Shown in pieces: positions 1,199 through 30,955 of a stretch of 30,955 bases of DNA. The notes beneath the pieces are model-generated. The model ran no database searches and had not been told where the DNA came from. It saw nothing but the letters and a program-made list of their open reading frames with translations. The stretch is from positions 207,127 through 238,081 of the forward strand of contig NW_003142805.1 of assembly GCF_000003605.2 (NCBI RefSeq). The letters run 5' to 3'. Made by a program: the position numbers and the translations under genes. Within the stretch, counting starts at the first letter, position 1. Every line of letters starts with the position of its first letter. Source of the DNA: Saccoglossus kowalevskii. Taxonomy: Eukaryota; Hemichordata; Enteropneusta; Harrimaniidae.

Positions 1199-10295
<9,097 letters not shown>

Positions 10296-17992: not shown

Positions 17993-18178
17993 TCACTCGT
18001 TTATATATTCACAACTGTTGCCATGGTGTTTATCTGATTGACATGTACACGAATATCCATACCGCGTATCTTGGCAATATGACAGATGCTGACATGGGTT
18101 GGTGGCGCACTTTCTTATAGGGCACGTCTGTAATATTTCAACGAAATCTTCCCATTCAAAGCCTCGAGACAATCGATC
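17993..18178 (-). CDS. EGF-like domain exon with stop
   Basis: Acceptor TTTTACTAG|GATCG, phase 0, matching the phase-0 donor at 20469. After a linker (DRLSRGFEWEDFVEILQ), cysteines follow the six-Cys EGF spacing: CATNPC, then SYC, then YSCTC, then NSC, with one extra Cys just before. TGA at 17995-17993 comes five codons after the last EGF Cys. There is no ATG in the first half, so the exon is easy to miss. A weak GTGAAT donor just before the final Cys would destroy the domain, so I read through it. Confidence 0.8.
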   Translation of the reverse strand, partial: DRLSRGFEWEDFVEILQTCPIRKCATNPCQHLSYCQDTRYGYSCTCQSDKHHGNSCEYINE

Positions 18179-21100
18179 CTAGTAAAACAGAGAATAAGTG
18201 TTGATATACACAATGTAATATGAGCTTATTACGAGATACCACAAAGTAAGCAGTATGGTGATCGATGCGATCCCGTGCAGTCGGAGAGCATATTTTGCAG
18301 CATTCATATGAAGTCTTATTAATATACAATTAATATCTTTCACTGTGTGTATTTATATTGTTGTGAGATATAGTAGCCCAAAATGCCAGCGAAAATATTC
18401 GTCACGTGATTATATATGTCATGCGCTACATTGTTGCAGTGTCCGTAAACAAAACAACTTATTCGAATGTTACGTAAACATGACGTATATTTATGAATAA
18501 GGAAGACAACCGACACATTCGAACACGTCCGTACAGCGTTTAAAAGACAGATGAATTCAATTGTTTACGGTGCCAGTTATATAATAATATTATTTATGTT
18601 TTGCAGTGAACAAACTAATATTCATTCGACGGAACAATGAACAATGCCACAGTTAATGCAATCTGATTAAAATCTGATGTAGTGTACGGGCTTTAATTAT
18701 TTTGGCTATAAACTGATTTTTATTATATTTGTTATTAATGCCCTTTTATTTTATTATTTAACTTTGATTTTTTTTTTAATTCCGCCCTACCTACATCTGA
18801 TCCGACGCCTATGTAAGTCCCGTTCAAATCTCGCGTAAGTAACAGCCAATCACAGCCCCCCTTTTATACAGGCTGTCGGTTGCTTACTTTTCAGTGTATA
18901 CGGGCAATCTTTCTGTACATTATATTTTGCCCACTTGAATAAAGCATTAATAGAAAATTGCTAGTATATTTTTATTTACAAAAGAAATTCCACTGCATTT
19001 TACAATTTTTGTCATTACATTGAATATTTCTAGATACATCTTCGCCAGCCAAAGTTCGTTCATTCAGTCATCGCTTCAATTTTACATCACTGAGCATAAT
19101 TATCTAGAATGGAAGCAAAAAAATAAGTAAATCGTAATGATTAGAACACTGTAAACAGCTATAGTAAACAATGCAAACTGATTTTAAATTGTATAACGGT
19201 CACCGGCCAACGGCATCGACGCAGAAAATTGGAGCAAACAAATATTTCCTGATCAATTGCGATGTGTTCCAAATAAAAAATATTTTATTCCAGCCCAAAT
19301 CAGCTCAATTACTTTAATAAAGAGTTATCGTATAATGTACAAAATGTTGATAAAATTTGATGAATATTTACAGCTTCAATACCGTAGACGATTTTGGCCC
19401 GATCGTCAACAAAACATCAGCCGTCTCCAGGGCAGGCGACTGGAAAAAGACACTGGTGTTCGGTCGAACCGGTGGAAACAAAATCGTCACTCCGAGAATA
19501 ACTATGCGAAATAACGATCTAAAGTCGAACCATTCGAGCCACAATATTAACATAAAAACGACTTTCGTTTGACAATGATAAACTTACCGAAAAGCCCGTG
19601 TTTATTCACGGTCGCTAACGTCGGTATAATCCGCCATTTTATTTGAGTGTTTGCCACCTGACTCTGCCCGGTGACGTCATCATGTGCGCTATAGAAGGAG
19701 GTCTATGATTCGTTGACTAAAATCGTCGATAGTGGGTCTCGTTGAAATCTCGTTACATAGGCATCGGGTCAGATGTAGGTAGGGCGGAATTAAAAAAAAT
19801 CACAAAATCAAAATCAAAGTAAAATAATGAAATAAAAGGGCATCAATAACAAAAGTAATAAAAAATTAAATTAAAATAAGTTTATAGCCAAAATAATTAA
19901 AGCCCGTACACTACATCAGATTTTAATCAGATTGCAGTTAATGGTCCCATGGAATTCCAAAACGATGGGTATTCTTCCGCTAAGGTGTGATTTGTACGGG
20001 ATGTTGATCTGAACTGACCTCGTTTGCACAAGGAATGTTCATGAGGACTCACATGCATTGTTCATGAGTACCTGTACTGTACAGAACATTGATGTGGGCT
20101 GACTTGTATTGGGAAAGATTTCCCTTTGTACCCCCATCACCCCTAACACCAAACCTACCACTACCCACCAGCACTCCCCAATGTAATTGTATATGTAGCT
20201 CCTAAGGACGCCTATAGTTATCTTGAGGGGGCATATACTATTGAATTGGAGGGCTTGGGGAAGGATACAAAGGAACTGCATTGTACAGGACGCTCAAGAC
20301 GATCTTGGTTGACTTTAATTGCGAAGGATGTTGATTGGGCGTAGACTAACATGTGTTGCACAGGACGTTGACGTGGACTGATTTTTACATCTGTTTTTTT
20401 GAATGTTTGAAAAGAGTACACAAATTTAAAAGTTCTGTGACAGAATGAAACTACGATACCCAAACTACCTGAAATGTATTAGTTGAAATGGTTTCATTGA
20501 GGAAGTAGCATAGTTGCATGTTTCCCTGTATGTAAACTCGTCCACCCACGTGACCCAATCTCATTAATGCATCAATGTGTTGTAGCTGTTCATTGTAAAG
20601 GAGTAGAATATTTCCTCCAATAAATTCGAGATTGTCAAGTCCCGATAGATGGAGCAATTCCTGTAATAAAGCGATATATATCAGTGAAAACAATTTTAAT
20701 GATGATCATTCTCAAATGTTCTAATTATCAATATTAGCGCAATCCCGATTCCCGAATCGATAGCGTAAGTTAGTGCGTTTATTGTTTTTGCACTTGTCTA
20801 CAAACCAGAAGATAGAACAGATTTCGAATGTTCCACACGTCACAGTACACCGCTTATCAGTGTTTCCAACTCGTAGCGCAAAAAATCCCCTCAAATAAAA
20901 GTACCATAATCTTTAAACTCGTCAGCCTCTGAAAATGTGCACAGTATTCTGTCTAAGCAAGAAAAATAAATATGCAATATATCTTTGGCTATAACGTAAT
21001 ATTTCATAGGGTACTTGAAATCTGAAAAACACGTCATATTTACTCAGCGAAACAAACACGTACTATCTTCTTTCCAGTACATTTTCTCTGCAAAAATCAT

Positions 21101-24100
21101 TTGTTCAACTGGTAATCCACGTTTCTCAACATTCTTATTATTTATATAAGTCTTTTTGTACCGACCCATTCCCACTCCGCCATTTATTAAAAACCGTTTC
21201 AATTATGCTACTGACTTCTTTCGGGGTTGCATGTCTATTGTTTCTCTTGATATTTTATATTTTTGTTTTACCCTCGCCTGCTGCTTTTTGGGTTACGCAT
21301 GCGCAAAACGAATTGGTGTTTGCATTGGTGCTTTATTATGATGCACTAATGCTTAATCAAACTTAATGACATTGATGAAATATCAGGTGATACATACCTT
21401 ATTACCGACAATGTAAAGAGAGCCGCCAATAACTCGTAAACTTGACATATCGTCCAACGTTTGAACGAGCATTGATAACAGGTACACGTCTCCATCAACT
21501 CGAGTGAGATTACGGAACTCTGTTAAATTTCTCAATTTTATATTCCGTTCCACACGAAGATTACCTAGAATGAACAATTAAATGTGTGGACGTAGTATAA
21601 ATAATGTGTACATGCTGTATAAATAATACATTGCATAAATATGTGCGTGTTGTGTAAACAATGGTTATTTAATTACCTTTAATATGCGTAACATCACGTA
21701 AAATAGCAACATCTAGCAAAGAGGGATTGTTTCTGATATCAATACTTTCTATCCATCTCAAATTCTCATCTCCATGGCGACCACCAAGACTAACAGTTGT
21801 TGCCAGATTTTCATTTCTCCAAATGCGTAGATTACCGATATGGTGAATGTTTTGTAATCCCTGCAGACTCCTTAGTGTGGGCACTTTGACTATTGATAAT
21901 TCATTGCGTACTACCTGAATATGTTGGGAACAGATTTCTGTGATTAGCATATTTTATCTTACATTACGTCACTATAGTTTATAGCCTATCACGTTAGTGT
22001 AACTTGAGATTGCCCGCAAGAATGTAAACTTGTCTCACGTGTGAGTCAACGCTAACATGGGGCAGTAGTGTTTAGACCACACAATAAAGTAGTCGTCCTT
22101 TTCAACATGTAGTAACTGACTTGTTATCTGATTCTGTAAAAGAACCTATACCCCACATTTTTTGGTGCCGGGACCAGGATGACCGATTCGGAAGAACAAG
22201 TTATTCAGCAGACAATTACGATGGATGCACGGACTGCTCATCGCGGAAGGATGACGACACTGCTCGCCCGAGCTCAAAATATTATGACTACGTTCAATGC
22301 CAAAGACCCAAATCAGTTCTAGGAACTCATCATGCTAAAGAAACGAATTCTTGAAAAGTTTGACACGATAAAAGGACTCGACGCCCTGATTGCTGATAAA
22401 GCAGATAGAAGCGAAATACATGCAGTCATAGCTGAAACTGAAGATTATACCGACGATATATTTGCCAAGAAATTCCAAATTTGCAGATTCGTCGAGAGAA
22501 ATACGCCAGATATCGCCCGCCAACGAAATACTCGAGAACATGTTGCGTGACAACAAATTCTTCCTCCGTTAACCTACCGAAACTCGAACTTCCGATGTTC
22601 AGCGGCGATGTTATGAAATGGAAGAATTTTGACAACAATATACATCTTGGTGCGGTTCAGAAGTTCCAATATCTTTGCGCCAAACTGTCCGGTGAAGCCG
22701 CACTGACAATTGAAAGATTACAGTTAAGTAATGATAATTATACGCATGCACTCGAACTTTTACGTAAACGATACGGCCAAGAACACAAAATTACCTCTGC
22801 GTATATGAAGTCATCATTGTGCGAGTTACCAAAACCGATAAATACCCGAGATAGTCTTCGTACCTTTTACGACAATTTAGAGAGTAGTATACGAGGACTG
22901 GAAGCGTTAGGGAAAGCGGAGAACTCCTTTGGTGATTTGCTTACGCCTCTCATTATGGAGAAACTTTCTGGGAACGTTCGTAAACAAATGGCACGGGACC
23001 ATGGTGATAATGAATGGACACTTCCCGGCCTACGCAAAGCTTTGTTAAAAGAAATCGTAGCAATACAAGCCGGGTACGCAATCGACGAAAGCCAGGACGA
23101 AATTCCACTTGTAAGCACCGCCGCCGCATTCTACACGGGTACCAAGACAAACGTTAAGCCATTCACACGTTAATCACAGCGCCCGAGCCTCAGTAAAACG
23201 AGAAATTGTGCCTACTGTAAAGGACCGCATTATCATAACGATTGCATTGTAGTTACGGATAAAAACAAACGACTTGGAACAGTCTAACGTTTAATATGTG
23301 TACGTAAACACCATACTTCGCTTTGCACTATCAACAATTGGACACCAGGCAAAACCCAACCCGCTGCTGTGCAAAATCAACCTCCTACTCCAACACACGT
23401 GAACTTCGCAAAGACGAAAGATATTCCGGCGCTGAGCCAGTCTTATTAAAAACTGCAGTAGCACCTATTTCCGCGGATACCGACATAGTCGCTATATACA
23501 TATATATATATACCGCGCACGTTGTGGCGTACACTCTGAGTGTACTTCGTGGGGCTATGCAACTTATCTCTGGAACTCCACAGCACTGACACCTAACCAA
23601 TATACGGGTAACCAGTGGGAAAACAGTCGGCAAATATGAGGACGTCTATATTATAACATTTATAGTTTGATATGAACATAACCAGGGGTAGTAGCTATAT
23701 GTAAGCTTAGATACCTTACATGCCTAACATGAGATGTTTTTTAAGCGAAAGCGCGGTGGTCGTCGCGCAGCGCGTGTTCGAATTTCATGTAAATAAACAA
23801 TGTATTTTACACGCGTTGTGTACGTCGCTATGAGTCCCATATCGAACAGGACGCGGTGCGACGACCACCGCCTTTTAATTTCAAAGATAACACGTGACTC
23901 AATATTCTAACAGTATTGTTACCAGCATAACTGTGCACTCATCGGAAAGAGCCTCACACTGACCACACACACAGTCTTGAAATCATGGAATCAAACACAA
24001 TACCTGAATATTTGCAAGCGATTTTAATGACATGACGTCACAACTTGCTGGGTGTCCATCACACGTGACCTCTAGGCCGCCACTCGACAGTATTTGGCTA

Positions 24101-27100
24101 CAGATTCCAGCATCGGTGAGGGCGTTGTTACTTCTGATGCTGATATCTCCTTTACAGGTGGCCTCCAGATTAATAAGAATAGTCGCAGTGCGTGTTTGCT
24201 TTTCTCCGTTTGCATTACCATGGTAACGCACATCAATTCGTCTACAAACAGAAAAGTGAATTACCCGATAAAACACATAAATATTGGATGTATATTGTTC
24301 TATGATATCTTCTCAATGGCTATTTTAACTTTAGCATTAAAGCCATAACAAATGCATATTGTCCGTCGGTAACTATCCTTCAGTATTTATTATTAGTCGG
24401 TACTCACCTTGTTTTCAAGTTTGGTTGGTATTTATAAATATTTTTCATTTTGTAATTGAAGTAACGTACATTATTGATCGCGTTCAGTATTTCGAGTGTA
24501 TTCATAGTTTTTCCATCTCGTTTTTTCATCAATAAAGATGACGTGTTATTGTCCGAACAAATAGTCTCATTGTTACAAATGAGAAACTCTCTGGTTCCGT
24601 CGAATCTTTCCCGAATAAATAATTCTAATGACGTCATGGAGTCAATATCTAAAAATAATGTAAACAAATTAATGGAGGAAACGTTCAACTTGACAGCTGG
24701 GTAATTAGTTTCGGTGAGTGTTTGAATTTGAATGATGTTTTCCGATGATATTTCAAAGACGCTGTAAACTGGAGAACTTGTGTGTACGCCATCAACGATC
24801 ACGAATTTGAAAATTATCCTGACATCTATGACGTCGGTAATAAATACAAGTTTATGTAATTCATTTTGCAATGCGTCGATTCGCACCAACCCAGACAAAC
24901 TGTACTTCCCGTCGCCCGTGTAACTCTCACGAAATTCAGCTGATAGATTGCGTATGCATAAATAGCCAATCACAGGCCTCGACTCATTTAAAAATTCATG
25001 CGGATCACGTTCTGTTTCCATTGTAACTTCTAAAGTGTATGGCCAAACTCCACCATCTTCATCCGTTAATGTCATTCCTGTGGTATTCACCACGTACACA
25101 TTGTCATATTTATTGTAATGCGTAGCAGTAAACAGCGCCCGCTCATGACCATTCACTAGCAACACTGGAACAAAGTCGTTCATCAGTAAAAACTCAATTC
25201 TCACCAAGTTTTGTTGGGATATATTATGGGATGTAATAGTGGTACTAATTTCCCGGCACCTAAATGGAATCATCGTATCTACATTTATATAAACAAGTGA
25301 ATGTAATATATCTCTGTACAGACCATCGCTGCCAGCGCCCGTAAGACTTAGATCGCCAGTGACTTGATTGAATGTTACGTCAATCTCGCCAGTTGTCATG
25401 TGATCTACGCGCAGCCAATCCCTGCACGCTAACACGCATCTAAGATGCTCTGAAATTAGTGGTCCTTCACTCAGAATCAAAGTGTCAATACTACCCTTGA
25501 AGTAACTCTTCATATCAGTGGTAGGTGTTGCTGCCATATAGAAGAACCCGTTGACATTTTGAATTAATGGCTGTTCGATCACTTGTACACCATGATATCG
25601 CCTATTTATGTATATTTCCACTGAAAAATTGCTACCACGATTCAAAATAAAAGTTAACTGATTTGGCTTTTCAAAATTCAGACCGATTTTTCCAAAAACA
25701 ACCCTTTTCAACCCGGACTGTGTTCTGTAATGAAAACATAACGTTTGGTTGTAGCCAATTTGCAAACTATAAAGAAGACTTGCAGTGAATGAAATTTTGG
25801 AGAATAGCGTACTGGTTTCGTTTTCCTGTGGATTCGATGTTCTAGGCGTGAACCACAAGAACGCCACCAACGACGAATGTTTGTGAGATGGCAATCTCGG
25901 GACGTCACCTTTGTAAATGGCGTATTGATTGACGCCATTGAACGTCAATCTGTCTCTACCATCGATGGACTTTATGGAAACGTCGCTCACTGATACCCGA
26001 TTCTTGTCAGAAACCAGAATTGGAGATGTAAATCCGCAAGTAGCAACCTTTCCCAGTTTATCTATTTCGCTTGAACAAATTGCACTTTCCCCACCATCAA
26101 TTATATAATCATGAATGACGCCATAGCCTCGACACGGTACAATGCTCACTGTTGCTGAATCCACGTGATCTGGGTAGCGCATGTCAACATTTAACGCTAG
26201 CTTGTGTTGACCCTCTAAAAAGTTATATGTCCCCGTGGCAATGTCGTCACCCACCGTGCAATTGTTAGATGAGTTTGTTTCTATAATCACAGTGAACACA
26301 CCAATTGTAGAGAGCGGGGGTTTCCCGTTATCCTCTGCAACAATTTCTAGTCTGAATATCGCTGATTGGTCCAGGGCAAGAACAGAATCTTGTGTCAAAA
26401 TTAGGGCGTTTTCATACGATATGCCGAATATGTTGTAATCGTTTCTCAAACGTAAGTGGACAATAGCGTTATGACCGCTATCTAAGTCGGTTACGTTCAA
26501 TCTGCATAACGGTTGGAGTTTTGGAAACTCAGAATCGATTGTAATCGTGTGTTTGTCCATGGCAAATGTTGGAGCGTTGTCATTGACGTCAGAAACCAGG
26601 GCAACAAATTTCACAACAGACTTTCTTGATATACTCCCATGATCCTTTGCGTATATATTGAACTTTAATGGGTTACTTGTTAAAGTGTCGAAATCAACCG
26701 CTGATAATAAAGAAACAACCCCAGATGTTGAGTCGATGCCAAAATAATTATTCGGCTCCATATAGTATGACACTGATCCATTTTCTCCAATATCCAAATC
26801 CGTTGCTGTTATTTGAATAACAGTTGAACTTGGTGTAAAATCTTCGCCGAACGATACCATGTATTGCCTATTTTCAAAATATGGAGAGTTATCATTGATA
26901 TCAAGTAATACAATACGGACATTGGTTATCGATGTACATTCCCGCTCAGCATCATTTGCTATCACAGTAATGTCGTACGCAGCATTTTCTTCTCTATCCA
27001 AAATGGCGGCGGTTTTTACTACACCTGTTGTGAATCCGACGTCAAAAAGGTCTGAGTTGCTGGAATATTGCAGGATATACTGGATCTTATTGTTGTGTGA

Positions 27101-27376
27101 GTCGGGATCATCAGTTCGCATCGAGAGGATTTCGGTTCCTATCGGTGATTCTTCTATGACAGATACAGAGATATTTTTACGAGAGAATAAGAGGCAGTTA
27201 TTATTCAATGTTGCATTCGATATGTCCTGCAAGAAATGATGACATGGAATATTATTTAGGAATACCGCGTGACTATAAATAATGTCACATGCAATACGCG
27301 ATTGTGTAATCTGTATTAAATGACTCCTATGTGCCTAACGCACTATATGTGTGTGTGTGTGGGGGGGGGGGTGTGG

Positions 27377-27414
<38 letters not shown>

Positions 27415-30400
27415 ACTAATATATCACACGTCCACTGTAATAATGGGCTCATACATTCAGTGCAATAATGAATATTGAAACAAGATAATACTAATGTATG
27501 AGCATAACTGTAATATTTCAAACACTGTTACAGAAATAAAGATCCAATCAATTCCATCGCAATGCTGTCAAATAAAGTATACAAAGTATTGCCAAAATAT
27601 AAATTCATCATATATTCATGCCTCAAATACTCTAAGGCAGAAGAAGTTTTTTCTTATAAGGTTTCTTCACTCGTAAAATTGTTGCAATGTATGTACTTGC
27701 AAAACACAGTTCTTGGCTTGGCGTGCGGCCATATCATTTCCTCGATTAGTGAATCAAGAGAATAACCATTGTGTGACGTCACAATGACACCGTGGAGTGA
27801 CGACTTACCTCCAATGGTATTGCTGTAGACATAACCTTATTTGCATTAATAGTCAGATTACACACATACTGCTCCGCTGAGTGTTGGCCACTATATAAAC
27901 ATATCACAATCCTGAAATGCAATCATAGTCAATCTTAAGGTGGACTCGACTAGAAAAGATTTGTTCAATACATAGCACTGCATGTAGACGTATAGTCAAC
28001 CGAATATATACACATGCCATCACGTAGAAGATAAAATAATATATTATTGATTATAATGCAAAAATAAGGATAGGTTGATCAATCATCCATTGGAACACAT
28101 ACTATTGTCACAAACTTAGGATGAACTAAGGGGCGGAGGTGGGCCAACAAATCTGTACGAGATTGTACAAAATATAATTAACCCCATCTAATTGAGTGAT
28201 CCATCATAGTGATGCATTCCAATGGAAGAAGGAGCAAATAGATCCCCACCACCACGATCTATTACCCGGAATATTGTAACAATTACTATTATTAAATGAA
28301 AATTAGTTTGCTAGTAGATTTTATTAGAAACGTTATGTTTTTTTTTATACGAATCTACATAAATATGTTAATATTGCTAACAAATACGTCATGTACATCC
28401 GTGTTCGCGGATAATTTGCAAACCTGATAAGTCTTTGGCTAAATCCTTATTTACCATAACTTATTTACATGAATTAGTAATTAAACAGATATATTAATGT
28501 AATTCACATACACCATTAGTTTAGAGTTGAAACCCATGCATATTACTTATTTAAGTTTGTATTAGGTCATTCTCTGATATCTCAATAACACTGTCTAATT
28601 AAATTAAACCTGGTGCATTGGTGCTCTGGTGTATTAAACTAACCACAGACTGAAAACCACAGATGCACACCATCGAATTGATTTTTCTTCGTGGATCGCA
28701 TCAAAGAGCTATATTAGTCGAAATGCTCCTTGCTTAAATGGGTAGCTCTATAATAATTATTAATCCTCATATTCTACTTCATACACAATAATACAACAAT
28801 ACAACATTGTATCTAAAAAATAAAATCAATGTGCCCATTATTAAATGTCATTCTCGTGTAGATAAACGATACACTATAATCGAGTAAGGTTGCTCGTATT
28901 TAACACTAGTGACAGACGAATTTATGTTTTTTTGAAGTTATGCTCTGTGAAAAAAACTAAACTAAACTGATACCTAAACTAAATTTATGCTATTAAGGAC
29001 ATCACTTGTAATCATTTTGAGAAATTCAAAATCGCCACAATAAAGAAGAACGTTATTGGAAATCACCATTAATCATTTTCATTGAATCATTTACGGCACC
29101 AGAATTTTATTTAGCTGTGTAAATTTCTACCTCGAAATACACTCATATATATACGATGACGTTGTAGTATATATACGCATGCATGCATAAAACCTTCTTA
29201 TGATATATAATAAGCGATATTTTGTAATCGTTTTTTTAAATAACAATTCAGAATGAAAGGTCATTGGCCGAAATACCAAACTACTTTCAATTGACTCTTA
29301 TAACAACAATTGCGAAATACCACCCACTATATATATTTATCCGTTTTAACAGCTTGTATCTATTCACTAACCTTCTTGTCGTTAAACTAGGCTGGTCAGC
29401 TGTATTGTTGTACCGTACACGTTGTAATATGTGACTGTATACGGAAGATGACGCCTGTCCTGAAATTATTAAATCTAAAAACGAAAGGGAACTTCATTCA
29501 TTAACTTCATTCATTAAATTCTTGTATTTGAATTGCATATATATATTATAGACTCAACAATTTGATTTACTTTCGTCCCACACGTGTCTGAAACTACATA
29601 ACCTGTCTGCATATCCATGTTAATTGATTACGCTGTGAGTGATTCAATAGTCAGAATAGTCAGTAATAGAGAAATTGACCGCCATGTAATTCCTTAGACA
29701 AACATTCATACACCATATGTACTAATATATTTTCCTATATCTAAGTTTTCAGATGAGGTATAGGTTGCTATAGTAACATGCTTAGTAACTTTTATAAAAT
29801 ATCTAAATCGCACATCAATTTTTAACTAGTTTTCCCGCTTTTGTATGTGTTCATGTTGAGGCATAATAAATGTATCGTCTGCGTGGCTTCTGAGGCAAAC
29901 GCATAAAACTATATAGCATATTCTTTATAAGCAGGCCGTTGTTGATTGATGTGTTTTGAATACTTACTTGAAGTTTGTGAATTATAGCCTATTGATAGAT
30001 TCTCATACTGACTGTGGCGTTCTGGGGATAATGCCACTTCCAATGATTGATGTAAACTGTCCGATGTGTCGGGAGTGATTTCAATCCTGGCAAACTGTAG
30101 TGGATTAACAATGACAGGCAAAAATACAATGGAAAAAAATTACTCATTGGTAAGTGGTTATTGCAGCACAATGAACTAATGTTGTTGCATTGGGATAAGA
30201 CAATTAAAATATTGCACAATAACCACGTAGGCATGAGTGGCATCAATTATGAGATGCACATACAATTGACCCACTTATTTTAACAGTTTATGACTTTTGT
30301 TATTGTGAACAAACCAACTGTGTTGAATCAAAATAAATAGATACAAGTCAACATACATTTATAAAATCTTATACAGCACTAGCGTTAGGTTAAAATAGTG

Positions 30401-30520
30401 GAAATGCGAATATTATAATACAAAAAGTGAAATAACTATTCACCGTGTAACTCGATGACTGGAGATTATATAACCACTCTGATGAATTTACATCAATAAG
30501 TAGAGTAGATCCCCCATTCA
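17993..30520 (-). CDS. Large extracellular protein: cadherin, calsyntenin-like, receptor L-domain and EGF modules (5' partial, 10 exons)
   Basis: Ten exons join in phase at all nine junctions: 30520-30444, 30094-29968, 29459-29372, 27911-27809, 27226-24408, 24241-24004, 21914-21677, 21564-21398, 20660-20469 and 18178-17993. They give 1410 aa and a stop. Order in partial-protein numbering: N-terminal segment of unknown type (1-67), beta module (68-131), cadherin repeats (148-247, 248-350, 351-449), LNS/laminin-G-like block resembling calsyntenin (about 559-729), more beta modules (about 758-819, 912-959, 1040-1100), receptor L-domain repeats (about 1100-1349), EGF-like domain (1373-1405). NxS/T glycosylation sites are frequent. 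No signal peptide is visible because the 5' end is missing, and no membrane segment is seen. Adhesion or ligand binding outside the cell is inferred from the domains. I cannot name an orthologue. Confidence 0.85.
18657..19936. mobile_element. Foldback / non-autonomous DNA transposon with long inverted ends
   Basis: Inverted ends at 18657-18816 and 19753-19936 share long runs of identity. The outer 56 bases, starting TGCAATCTGATTAAAATC, appear perfect, and the inner ends carry AATTCCGCCCTACCTACATC. Directly outside both ends is GTTAA (18652-18656 and 19937-19941), a likely target duplication. The 936-bp interior has no transposase, so the element depends on another for movement. It sits in the intron between the last L-domain exon and the EGF exon. 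Superfamily is open: the duplication could be 5 bp, or TTAA plus one base. Confidence 0.92.
19375..19520. other. GC-richer island inside the foldback element
   Basis: This part of the interior is open in several frames on both strands, with CpG-containing sequence unlike the AT-rich ends. A TTTACAG acceptor-like sequence precedes it on the plus strand. It may be a captured host fragment. I recognise no protein. Confidence 0.35.
19985..20390. repeat. Degenerate ~32-bp repeats
   Basis: Units resembling TGTACAGGATGTTGATGTGG followed by ACTGACTTG recur near 19990, 20022, 20074, 20280, 20319 and 20352, interrupted by a C-rich stretch near 20130-20175. They lie directly next to the right end of the foldback element. 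Confidence 0.5.
20469..20660 (-). CDS. Receptor L-domain exon 3
   Basis: Acceptor TTATTACAG|GAATTG and donor TTTCAG|GTAGTT, phase 0 at both ends, 64 codons. The pattern LSGLDNLEFIGGNILLLYN, then LGHVGGRVYIQGN and MQLCY, matches the repeating strand-turn layout of EGFR and insulin-receptor L domains, including the closing N-x-x-LCY. Confidence 0.9.
21398..21564 (-). CDS. Receptor L-domain exon 2
   Basis: Acceptor CATTCTAG|GT and donor AATAAG|GTATGT; the first codon is split 1+2 with the previous exon. It carries NLRVERNIKL, LTRVDGDVYL and LRVIGGSLYIVGN, three turns of the L-domain repeat. Confidence 0.92.
21677..21914 (-). CDS. Receptor L-domain exon 1
   Basis: Acceptor CATATTCAG|GTAGTA and donor AAAG|GTAATT, starting in phase 0 and leaving one base. 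NELSIVKVPTLRSLQGLQNI, then IGNLRIWRNENL, SIDIRNNPSL and ILRDVTHIKG, give four turns of the repeat. The conserved Asn after each strand (RN, NN) is the L-domain turn residue. Confidence 0.92.
22140..23500 (+). mobile_element. Broken BEL/Pao LTR-retrotransposon fragment
   Basis: A TGGTGCCGGGACCAGGATG stretch (22163-22181) resembles the primer-binding leader found just after the LTR in such elements, and the first gag ATG overlaps its end. A gag region, a CCHC-type zinc knuckle and the first residues of a protease-like part follow. The sequence then degrades into a TA repeat, and no reverse transcriptase or integrase is present. AATAAA near 22083 may belong to the remaining 5' LTR, but the LTR start is not visible. 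It lies antisense in the intron between exons 24241-24004 and 21914-21677. Confidence 0.8.
22179..23280 (+). pseudogene. gag: Disrupted BEL/Pao gag
   Basis: The frame from 22179 has a stop at 22320-22322 and another at 22548-22550. The gag core (DUF1759-like, with KLELPMFSGD and the GEAA motif) resumes in a second frame around 22560, so there is a frameshift. About 15 residues usual after the KW(K/Q)xF motif appear missing. A further stop at 23171-23173 is followed in the same frame by the knuckle CAYCKGPHYHNDC (from 23207), spacing C-x2-C-x3-H-x4-C as in this family. At least four lesions make it non-functional. Confidence 0.85.
23496..23512. repeat. TA dinucleotide run
   Basis: Short imperfect TA repeat at the decaying 3' edge of the retroelement fragment. 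Confidence 0.7.
23743..23881. repeat. GC-rich hairpin, possible small MITE
   Basis: A perfect 14-base inverted pair, GCGGTGGTCGTCGC at 23753-23766 and its complement at 23858-23871. It extends imperfectly inward to TGTTCGA / TCGAACA and outward to TTAA-like ends. It is CpG-rich within AT-rich surroundings. The TTAA-like outer bases could be a target duplication but are not exact. Confidence 0.65.
24004..24241 (-). CDS. End of fourth beta module and start of L-domain region
   Basis: Acceptor TTTGTAG|A and donor ATTCAG|GTATTG; the first base completes a codon started in the large exon (Arg). It opens with RRIDVRYHGNANG, the second half of the beta module. The later CKGDISIRSNNALTD, GLEVTCDG and LKSLANIQ resemble the Cys-bounded start of a receptor L domain. 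Length 1 + 79 codons. Confidence 0.9.
24408..27226 (-). CDS. Large 2.8-kb exon: three cadherin repeats, calsyntenin-like LNS block, beta modules
   Basis: Acceptor TTTCTTGCAG|GACATA and donor AACAAG|GTGAGT; 939 codons plus two bases, with no stop. Cadherin calcium motifs are DINDNSP (residues 240-246), DVNDNAP (344-350), LDRE (207-210), TDLDIG and TDLDSG. Repeat 3 lacks a closing DxNDN. A laminin-G/LNS-like region follows, opening near FNGVNQYAIYKGDV and closing with FKGSIDTLILSEG and CVLACRDWL. Then DLSLTGAGSDGLYRDILHSL and a YIN stretch resemble the block after the LNS domain of calsyntenins (recalled, not computed). Calsyntenins have two cadherin repeats and a membrane segment, unlike this protein. 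Shadow ORFs on both strands overlap. Confidence 0.93.
27347..27411. repeat. GT microsatellite with G run
   Basis: Two GT runs separated by a tract of about ten G bases, in the intron upstream of the large exon. The opposite-strand ORF of His/Thr repeats is an artefact of it. Confidence 0.97.
27809..27911 (-). CDS. Exon: second half of first beta module
   Basis: Acceptor GCATTTCAG|G and donor TTGGAG|GTAAGT; one leading base plus 34 codons, running into the cadherin exon in phase 0. RIVICLYSG...CNLTINAN parallels RRIDVRYHGN...ATILINLEA in the later module, which supports the exon independently. Confidence 0.82.
27912..29371. other. Intron of the multidomain gene
   Basis: AT-rich. Inverted CCATTGGAA (near 28090) and TTCCAATGG (near 28213) might bound a small decayed element. 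No ORF of interest. Confidence 0.6.
29372..29459 (-). CDS. Exon: first half of first beta module
   Basis: Acceptor AATTTCAG|GA and donor AGAAG|GTTAGT; 2 + 28 codons + 2 bases. It encodes VYSHILQRVRYNNTADQPSL, which parallels LNAINNVRYFNY in the module at the end of the large exon. The frame works only with the neighbouring exons proposed here, and both junctions fit. Confidence 0.8.
29968..30094 (-). CDS. Exon of N-terminal segment
   Basis: Acceptor CCACTACAG|TTTGCC and donor TTCAA|GTAAGT; 42 codons plus one base. FARIEITPDTSDSL and the following polar stretch match no family I can name. The donor is strong and the phase fits both sides. Confidence 0.75.
30444..30520 (-). CDS. First visible exon (5' partial)
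   Basis: Donor TACACG|GTGAAT, phase 0, joins FARIEITP. The most likely acceptor is CATATACAG|TG, giving two bases plus 25 codons (NGGSTLLIDVNSSEWLYNLQ and five more). The acceptor is uncertain, because the frame stays open upstream through the adjacent tandem array. Earlier exons and any signal peptide lie beyond the window. Confidence 0.6.
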
Positions 30521-30555
30521 CTGTATATGAATTACATCTTATATCATTGCAGTAA

Positions 30556-30955
30556 ACAACATGTATGGTACTGAATATATGTACTTCAATCAGCAATATT
30601 ATTAGACGTCTGTTAAGAAAAACAACATGTATGGTACTGAATATATGTACTTCAATCAGCAATATTATTAGACGTCTGTTAATAAATAAATACAACATGT
30701 ATGGTACTGAATATATGTACTTCAATCAGCAATATTATTAGACGGCTGTTAAGAAAAACAACATGTATGGTACTGAATATATGTACTTCAATCAGCAATA
30801 TTATTAGACGTCTGTTAATAAATAAAACATGTATGGTACTGAATATATGTACTTCAATCAGCAATATTATTAGACGTCTGTTAAGAAAAACAACATGTAT
30901 AGTACTGAATATATGTACTTCAATCAGCAATATTATTAGACGGCTGTTAATAAAT
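30556..30955. repeat. 66/70-bp tandem array with alternating unit types
   Basis: Six copies to the window edge, starting at 30556, 30622, 30692, 30758, about 30825 and 30890, each beginning ACAACATGTATGGTACTG or close. Units alternate between endings GTTAAGAAAA (copies 1, 3, 5) and GTTAATAAAT (2, 4, 6), so the true repeat is a dimer of about 134 bp. Copies are nearly identical apart from a TCT/GCT variant. The two long minus-strand ORFs here come from the 66-bp (22-codon) period and are not genes. Confidence 0.95.

Follow-up and report, generated by a model that had tools for sequence, protein, structure and literature searches.

A probable hemichordate gene that combines cadherin repeats, a receptor L-domain solenoid and an EGF domain

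The stretch of DNA analysed here, referred to as the window, comprises 30,955 nucleotides of a Saccoglossus kowalevskii contig, and is likely to contain most of a single animal gene whose product would be a large, atypical cadherin of the extracellular space. In the predicted product, an N-terminal stretch, which we call R1, precedes the three cadherin repeats; these lead into a ConA/LNS-like stretch and then additional stretches, an L-domain solenoid and an EGF domain. The gene model consists of ten minus-strand exons between 30520 and 17997. The initial annotation had joined these in phase at nine GT/AG junctions, and indeed, when the model was rebuilt, the phases were consistent across all nine introns and the exons gave 4231 nt, or 1410 open codons, with neither a start nor a stop. 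Residue numbers below follow a 1417-codon version of the model, which begins seven codons before the 1410-codon version and whose two alternative frames contain 95 and 113 stops. That cadherin repeats, a receptor L domain and an EGF domain occur in one model, as was also proposed at the outset, was borne out by Pfam matches that passed their cut-offs, in the case of EGF when the piece was scanned alone. There are no runs of N in the window.

The N-terminal stretch is encoded by the first four exons. Exon 1 (30444..30520), with the acceptor ..tatacag/TG and the donor ACG/gtgaat, holds the first codons of what looks like a β-rich stretch, and contains no Met. Exons 2 (29968..30094) and 3 (29372..29459) continue R1, which lacks a Pfam match in exon 2, and were placed by boundaries, frame and codon usage; exon 4 (27809..27911), containing the end of R1, was placed by boundaries and frame, its codon usage alone not being distinctive. 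For the model as a whole, the chosen frame was the best of the three in 10 of 10 exons with two codon-usage scorers, a result to be read in the light of the stops that lower the scores of the other frames and of the use of exon 5 to train one of the scorers. When scored against stop-free intronic stretches, exons 4 and 10 were indistinguishable from this null (0.34 and 0.47 of which scored as high as exon 4, and 0.43 and 0.34 as high as exon 10), exons 1 and 3 were weakly distinguishable (0.07–0.14), and for exons 6 and 7 the null comprised 8–11 stretches only.

The cadherin part lies in exon 5 (24408..27226). Its 939 codons encode three cadherin repeats, a linker, the ConA/LNS-like stretch and then stretches unmatched in Pfam. 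Searching the whole model with Pfam Cadherin gave three stretches above the cut-off (E 2e-31, 108.7 bits, residues ~159–455), that is, three consecutive repeats where membership of the cadherin superfamily takes at least two. By eye, the motifs LDRE, DINDN, DVNDN and ATDLD can be recognised in this part, the third repeat being degenerate, and we take LDRE, DINDN, DVNDN and DLD to be the calcium-binding motifs located between cadherin repeats. The best 60 of 175 solved-chain matches were CELSR, protocadherins and other cadherins, and of those listed, CELSR1 and protocadherins matched the cadherin part best. A search of the genome with the full model placed 49 of 55 matches outside the gene, all of them to residues 114–456, i.e. 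the cadherin part; this search scored 33 of 238 candidates and, being conducted exon by exon in six frames, can miss short exons. Many cadherin-repeat matches were also seen on each of five other contigs (C2180, C4133, C4774, C347 and C1913; 150 of 476 candidates scored), and an open frame on C2180 was listed at 4971 aa, a length to which N runs may have contributed.

The L-domain solenoid starts, as judged by eye, at Cys 1108 in exon 6 (24004..24241), after the end of the preceding stretch, and its turns continue through exons 7 (21677..21914), 8 (21398..21564, Recep_L) and 9 (20469..20660). Exon 9 closes with LCY and the residues adjoining it, which make up the first part of a probable C-terminal L-domain cap, and exon 10 (17997..18178) holds the rest of this cap (W..F..IL) and one EGF domain. 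Recep_L matched three stretches of the whole model (E 8.5e-11, 42.4 bits, cut-off 21.8). Scanned by piece, exon 8 alone gave 12.7 bits and exon 9 alone 14.8 bits, both below the cut-off, and the piece running from exon 7 through exon 9 gave 43.1 bits. About ten turns were counted by eye. The turn motif is present six times in the L region vs a mean of 0.6 in 1000 shuffles (the maximum among which was also 6), and it spans the exon 6/exon 7 and exon 7/exon 8 junctions once each, while the last five motifs are spaced at 23–24 residues, a spacing kept across the exon 8/exon 9 junction. The EGF domain, with six cysteines at about 18109–18011, scored 16.2 bits on the whole model, below the cut-off of 21.5, and 23.7 bits as a separate piece.

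Against solved structures, the L and EGF region had 58 matches at E ≤ 10, the majority to EGF domains from Notch and clotting factors; the sole L-domain receptor among the solved matches of the L region was erbB-3 (E 0.0082), and a few other weak matches look like chance. Elsewhere in the genome, Recep_L gave five matches on four contigs (7 of 7 candidates scored), of which L009 and L010 look EGFR-like by eye, L012 and L013 look insulin-receptor-like, and L011 carries no family label. This genome-wide search missed the split exons of the window itself and thus may miss other split L domains.

The cadherin and L-domain parts probably belong to one gene, with a single predicted transcript across all ten exons. 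The alternative that fares best, though an improbable one in our view, is that the cadherin/LNS protein has a gene of its own, which stops at exon 6 or shortly thereafter, and that an L-domain/EGF protein is encoded by a neighbouring gene starting past a retroelement. Several properties of the region between 24004 and 21914, where the initial annotation had allowed for a break, would fit such an arrangement. Inside intron 6, on the opposite strand, lies a retroelement gag-like DUF1759 ORF (22481..23173, plus strand, E 3.6e-28), which is presumably a BEL/Pao-type gag and is not in the product. The donor of exon 6 (CAG/gtattg) is the weakest in the model, at 1.2 bits on home-made scores, and past it the exon 6 frame reads on for six further codons to a stop. 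Neither exon 6 alone nor exon 6 with the start of exon 7 matches any Pfam family, Recep_L included, so the exon 6/exon 7 junction rests on the turn motif. At this junction, LKSLANIQ/VVRNELSI agrees in its hydrophobic spacing with LSFLKDIQEVSGYVSI of the EGFR-like exon L009, and the spacing also equals that of L010; by chance, 15 of 176 phase-0 acceptors would be compatible with the motif. This turn motif argues against a break, as the first L-domain turns seem to lie in exon 6, the last of them being completed by exon 7, and exon 7 starts mid-solenoid. The long introns do not in themselves call for a gene boundary either, because intron 6 contains the DUF1759 ORF and intron 9 a stretch of long inverted repeats (18650..19943, arms of 60–88 nt, 88–91% complementary), the latter likewise not in the product.

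In the single-gene model, the region after the cadherin repeats is best called ConA/LNS-like and not calsyntenin-like, with LNS homology that is only suggestive. We chose this label because the best Pfam match is sub-threshold and there is no solved relative: Laminin_G_3 on the excised piece (residues ~596–729, about 25858–25457) gave 19.4 bits, below the cut-off of 27.6 (E 0.0012), the other Pfam matches were weak and to unrelated families, and no solved chain was matched at E ≤ 10 by the region that separates the cadherins from the L domain. The "calsyntenin-like LNS" of the initial annotation was accordingly not established, since it comes down to this one sub-threshold match and CLSTN_C (PF19699) is absent among the five families matching the model at E ≤ 10. 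Searching the genome with CLSTN_C gave no match, and neither did the positive control.

A diverged calsyntenin, i.e. the animal's calsyntenin or a paralog with extra domains, seems to us less likely still than two genes. The accessible part of PMC9064300 gives the calsyntenin order as two cadherin domains and then one LNS domain, which the succession of cadherin repeats and a possible LNS/ConA-like stretch does resemble. Where a calsyntenin would have two cadherin repeats, an LNS domain and then a transmembrane segment, however, our model has three repeats, an LNS match below cut-off and no transmembrane segment found, the 3' end being missing; it also has an added L domain and EGF domain, and no CLSTN_C match. 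Moreover, a separate calsyntenin ortholog, CSTN1, is reported for S. kowalevskii (PMC10734073, accessible part).

For R1 and the stretches between the LNS-like stretch and the L domain, there was no credible match to a Pfam family. We also looked for a repeat family among the stretches around LNS (36 pairs), and saw no clear one: R1–R4 and R2–R3 each reached z 3.2, but R4–LNS reached z 3.5, and cadherin pairs, the yardstick for internal similarity, gave z 3.8, 8.4 and 8.6. The R2–LNS pair (z 5.3) was dropped, as ten residues were common to both pieces from how they were cut. R1 and R4 also have in common a TRR motif with a phase-2 intron, at positions that differ by one codon, and this is suggestive only. 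An AlphaFold2 prediction for exon 5, run without an alignment, had a mean pLDDT of 32.5 and was unusable.

L domains are known from the EGFR and insulin-receptor families, and it would be on this ground that the gene might be a receptor tyrosine kinase relative with its kinase in further 3' exons, a very remote prospect given that no HRD or DFG motif was seen in the minus-strand frames from 17996 to the window start (a motif scan only, which would miss an intron-split motif) and that no furin-like region was matched by Pfam in this incomplete model. The atypical-cadherin model does resemble these receptors in its Recep_L match, in the turn spacing shared with the EGFR-like exons of the genome and in the LCY..W..IL cap, and it differs from them in having one longer solenoid that is attached to cadherins. 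Among cadherins, CELSR and Fat also combine cadherin repeats with EGF and laminin-G-type domains. The same combination is described for type III classical cadherins in the accessible part of PMC10734073. Our model is similar to all of these in that respect, and unlike them has an L-domain solenoid and few cadherin repeats, with no cytoplasmic part found, such as the catenin-binding tail that marks the type III group.

Searching the genome with the non-cadherin part (23 of 23 candidates scored, exon by exon in six frames, which can miss short exons) gave 20 matches at E ≤ 10, six of them within the gene itself and 13 in the EGF end only (query 883–962, best E 0.0035). L041 (E 0.28) was considered as a paralog match and turned out to be a tandem-repeat artefact; beyond it, the LNS and L regions matched nothing outside the gene, and the search turned up no second copy of the non-cadherin parts. 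The architecture appears unusual and perhaps unreported, assembled from familiar modules, and presumably arose by exon shuffling, through which new extracellular proteins commonly originate. The domain order had initially been annotated as undescribed, and with regard to a protein that has both a cadherin part and an L domain this agrees with the open-licence papers listed, as judged by titles and opening abstracts, where no description was found, a weak negative. Similarly, no protein of this kind is mentioned in the accessible part of the survey PMC10734073. We regard it as rather doubtful, if conceivable, that this is the first known family to have an L-domain solenoid mounted on a calcium-dependent cadherin stalk, a kinase-less, adhesion-coupled ligand receptor present only in hemichordates or in animals closely related to them.

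We read the protein as extracellular because of the 24 N-glycosylation sequons in the model, the EGF domain and the calcium motifs of the cadherin repeats; its visible part contains no enzymatic domain. The cadherin repeats, assuming that they bind calcium, would make up a stalk that is stiffened by calcium and presents an adhesive face, a protein or glycan partner would be bound by the L-domain solenoid and the ConA-like stretch, and the protein would most likely act as an adhesion and recognition molecule in the matrix or, if membrane-attached, at the cell surface. Should transcripts confirm the architecture, and should it be found nowhere else, it would join two extracellular systems that are usually separate, adhesion of cells through cadherins and growth-factor-type recognition through L domains, in a hemichordate, a member of a group used for inferring deuterostome origin, and would offer one defined protein for testing adhesion and ligand capture together. 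If it is merely another exon-shuffled extracellular protein, it would be ordinary.

Both ends of the gene are open. The 5' part is missing because the window end is also the end of the contig (C3361), so that this part lies beyond it, and at the other end the frame is still open where exon 10 stops. For the model, neither a start nor a signal peptide, a transmembrane segment, a 3' end or a stop was found within the window. None of 28 candidate terminal exons (acceptor score ≥ 2) was convincing, and a hydrophobic, GPI-like tail noted by eye near 16.2 kb has a poor acceptor and was not adopted. Downstream on the minus strand, only one run of at least 19 permissive hydrophobic residues was detected, far off at 2401, in a scan that would miss a membrane segment interrupted by an intron. 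A tandem repeat with a 66-base unit occupies 30554–30955, at the assembly break that ends the contig. Since a search of the genome with this repeat, in which common words are skipped, matched only the repeat itself, no 5' partner contig was found.

Lastly, two observations concern other genes. Downstream of the cadherin/L-domain gene, a homeodomain is encoded over two minus-strand exons (2854–3012 and 4281–4640 of the window) of a gene that resembles Phox2; a possible first exon of this homeobox gene lies near 10.3 kb, at a position with no Pfam match. The mitochondrial contig of the assembly (C4830, 17037 bases) contains a tRNA with anticodon UUU, has COX1 on the opposite strand, and shows a single AGG across nine open frames in which codons were counted, located close to where the COX3 frame begins. 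At conserved sites, we take ATA to be Ile, AAA to be Lys and AGA to be Ser on this contig. This hemichordate-type code and the COX1 inversion fit S. kowalevskii as the host. For the mitochondrion of this species, the accessible part of PMC3121625 reports AUA as Ile, AAA as Lys, AGA as Ser, a missing AGG, a tRNA-Lys with anticodon UUU and an inverted COX1, in contrast to AAA as Asn in echinoderms and AUA as Met in chordates.
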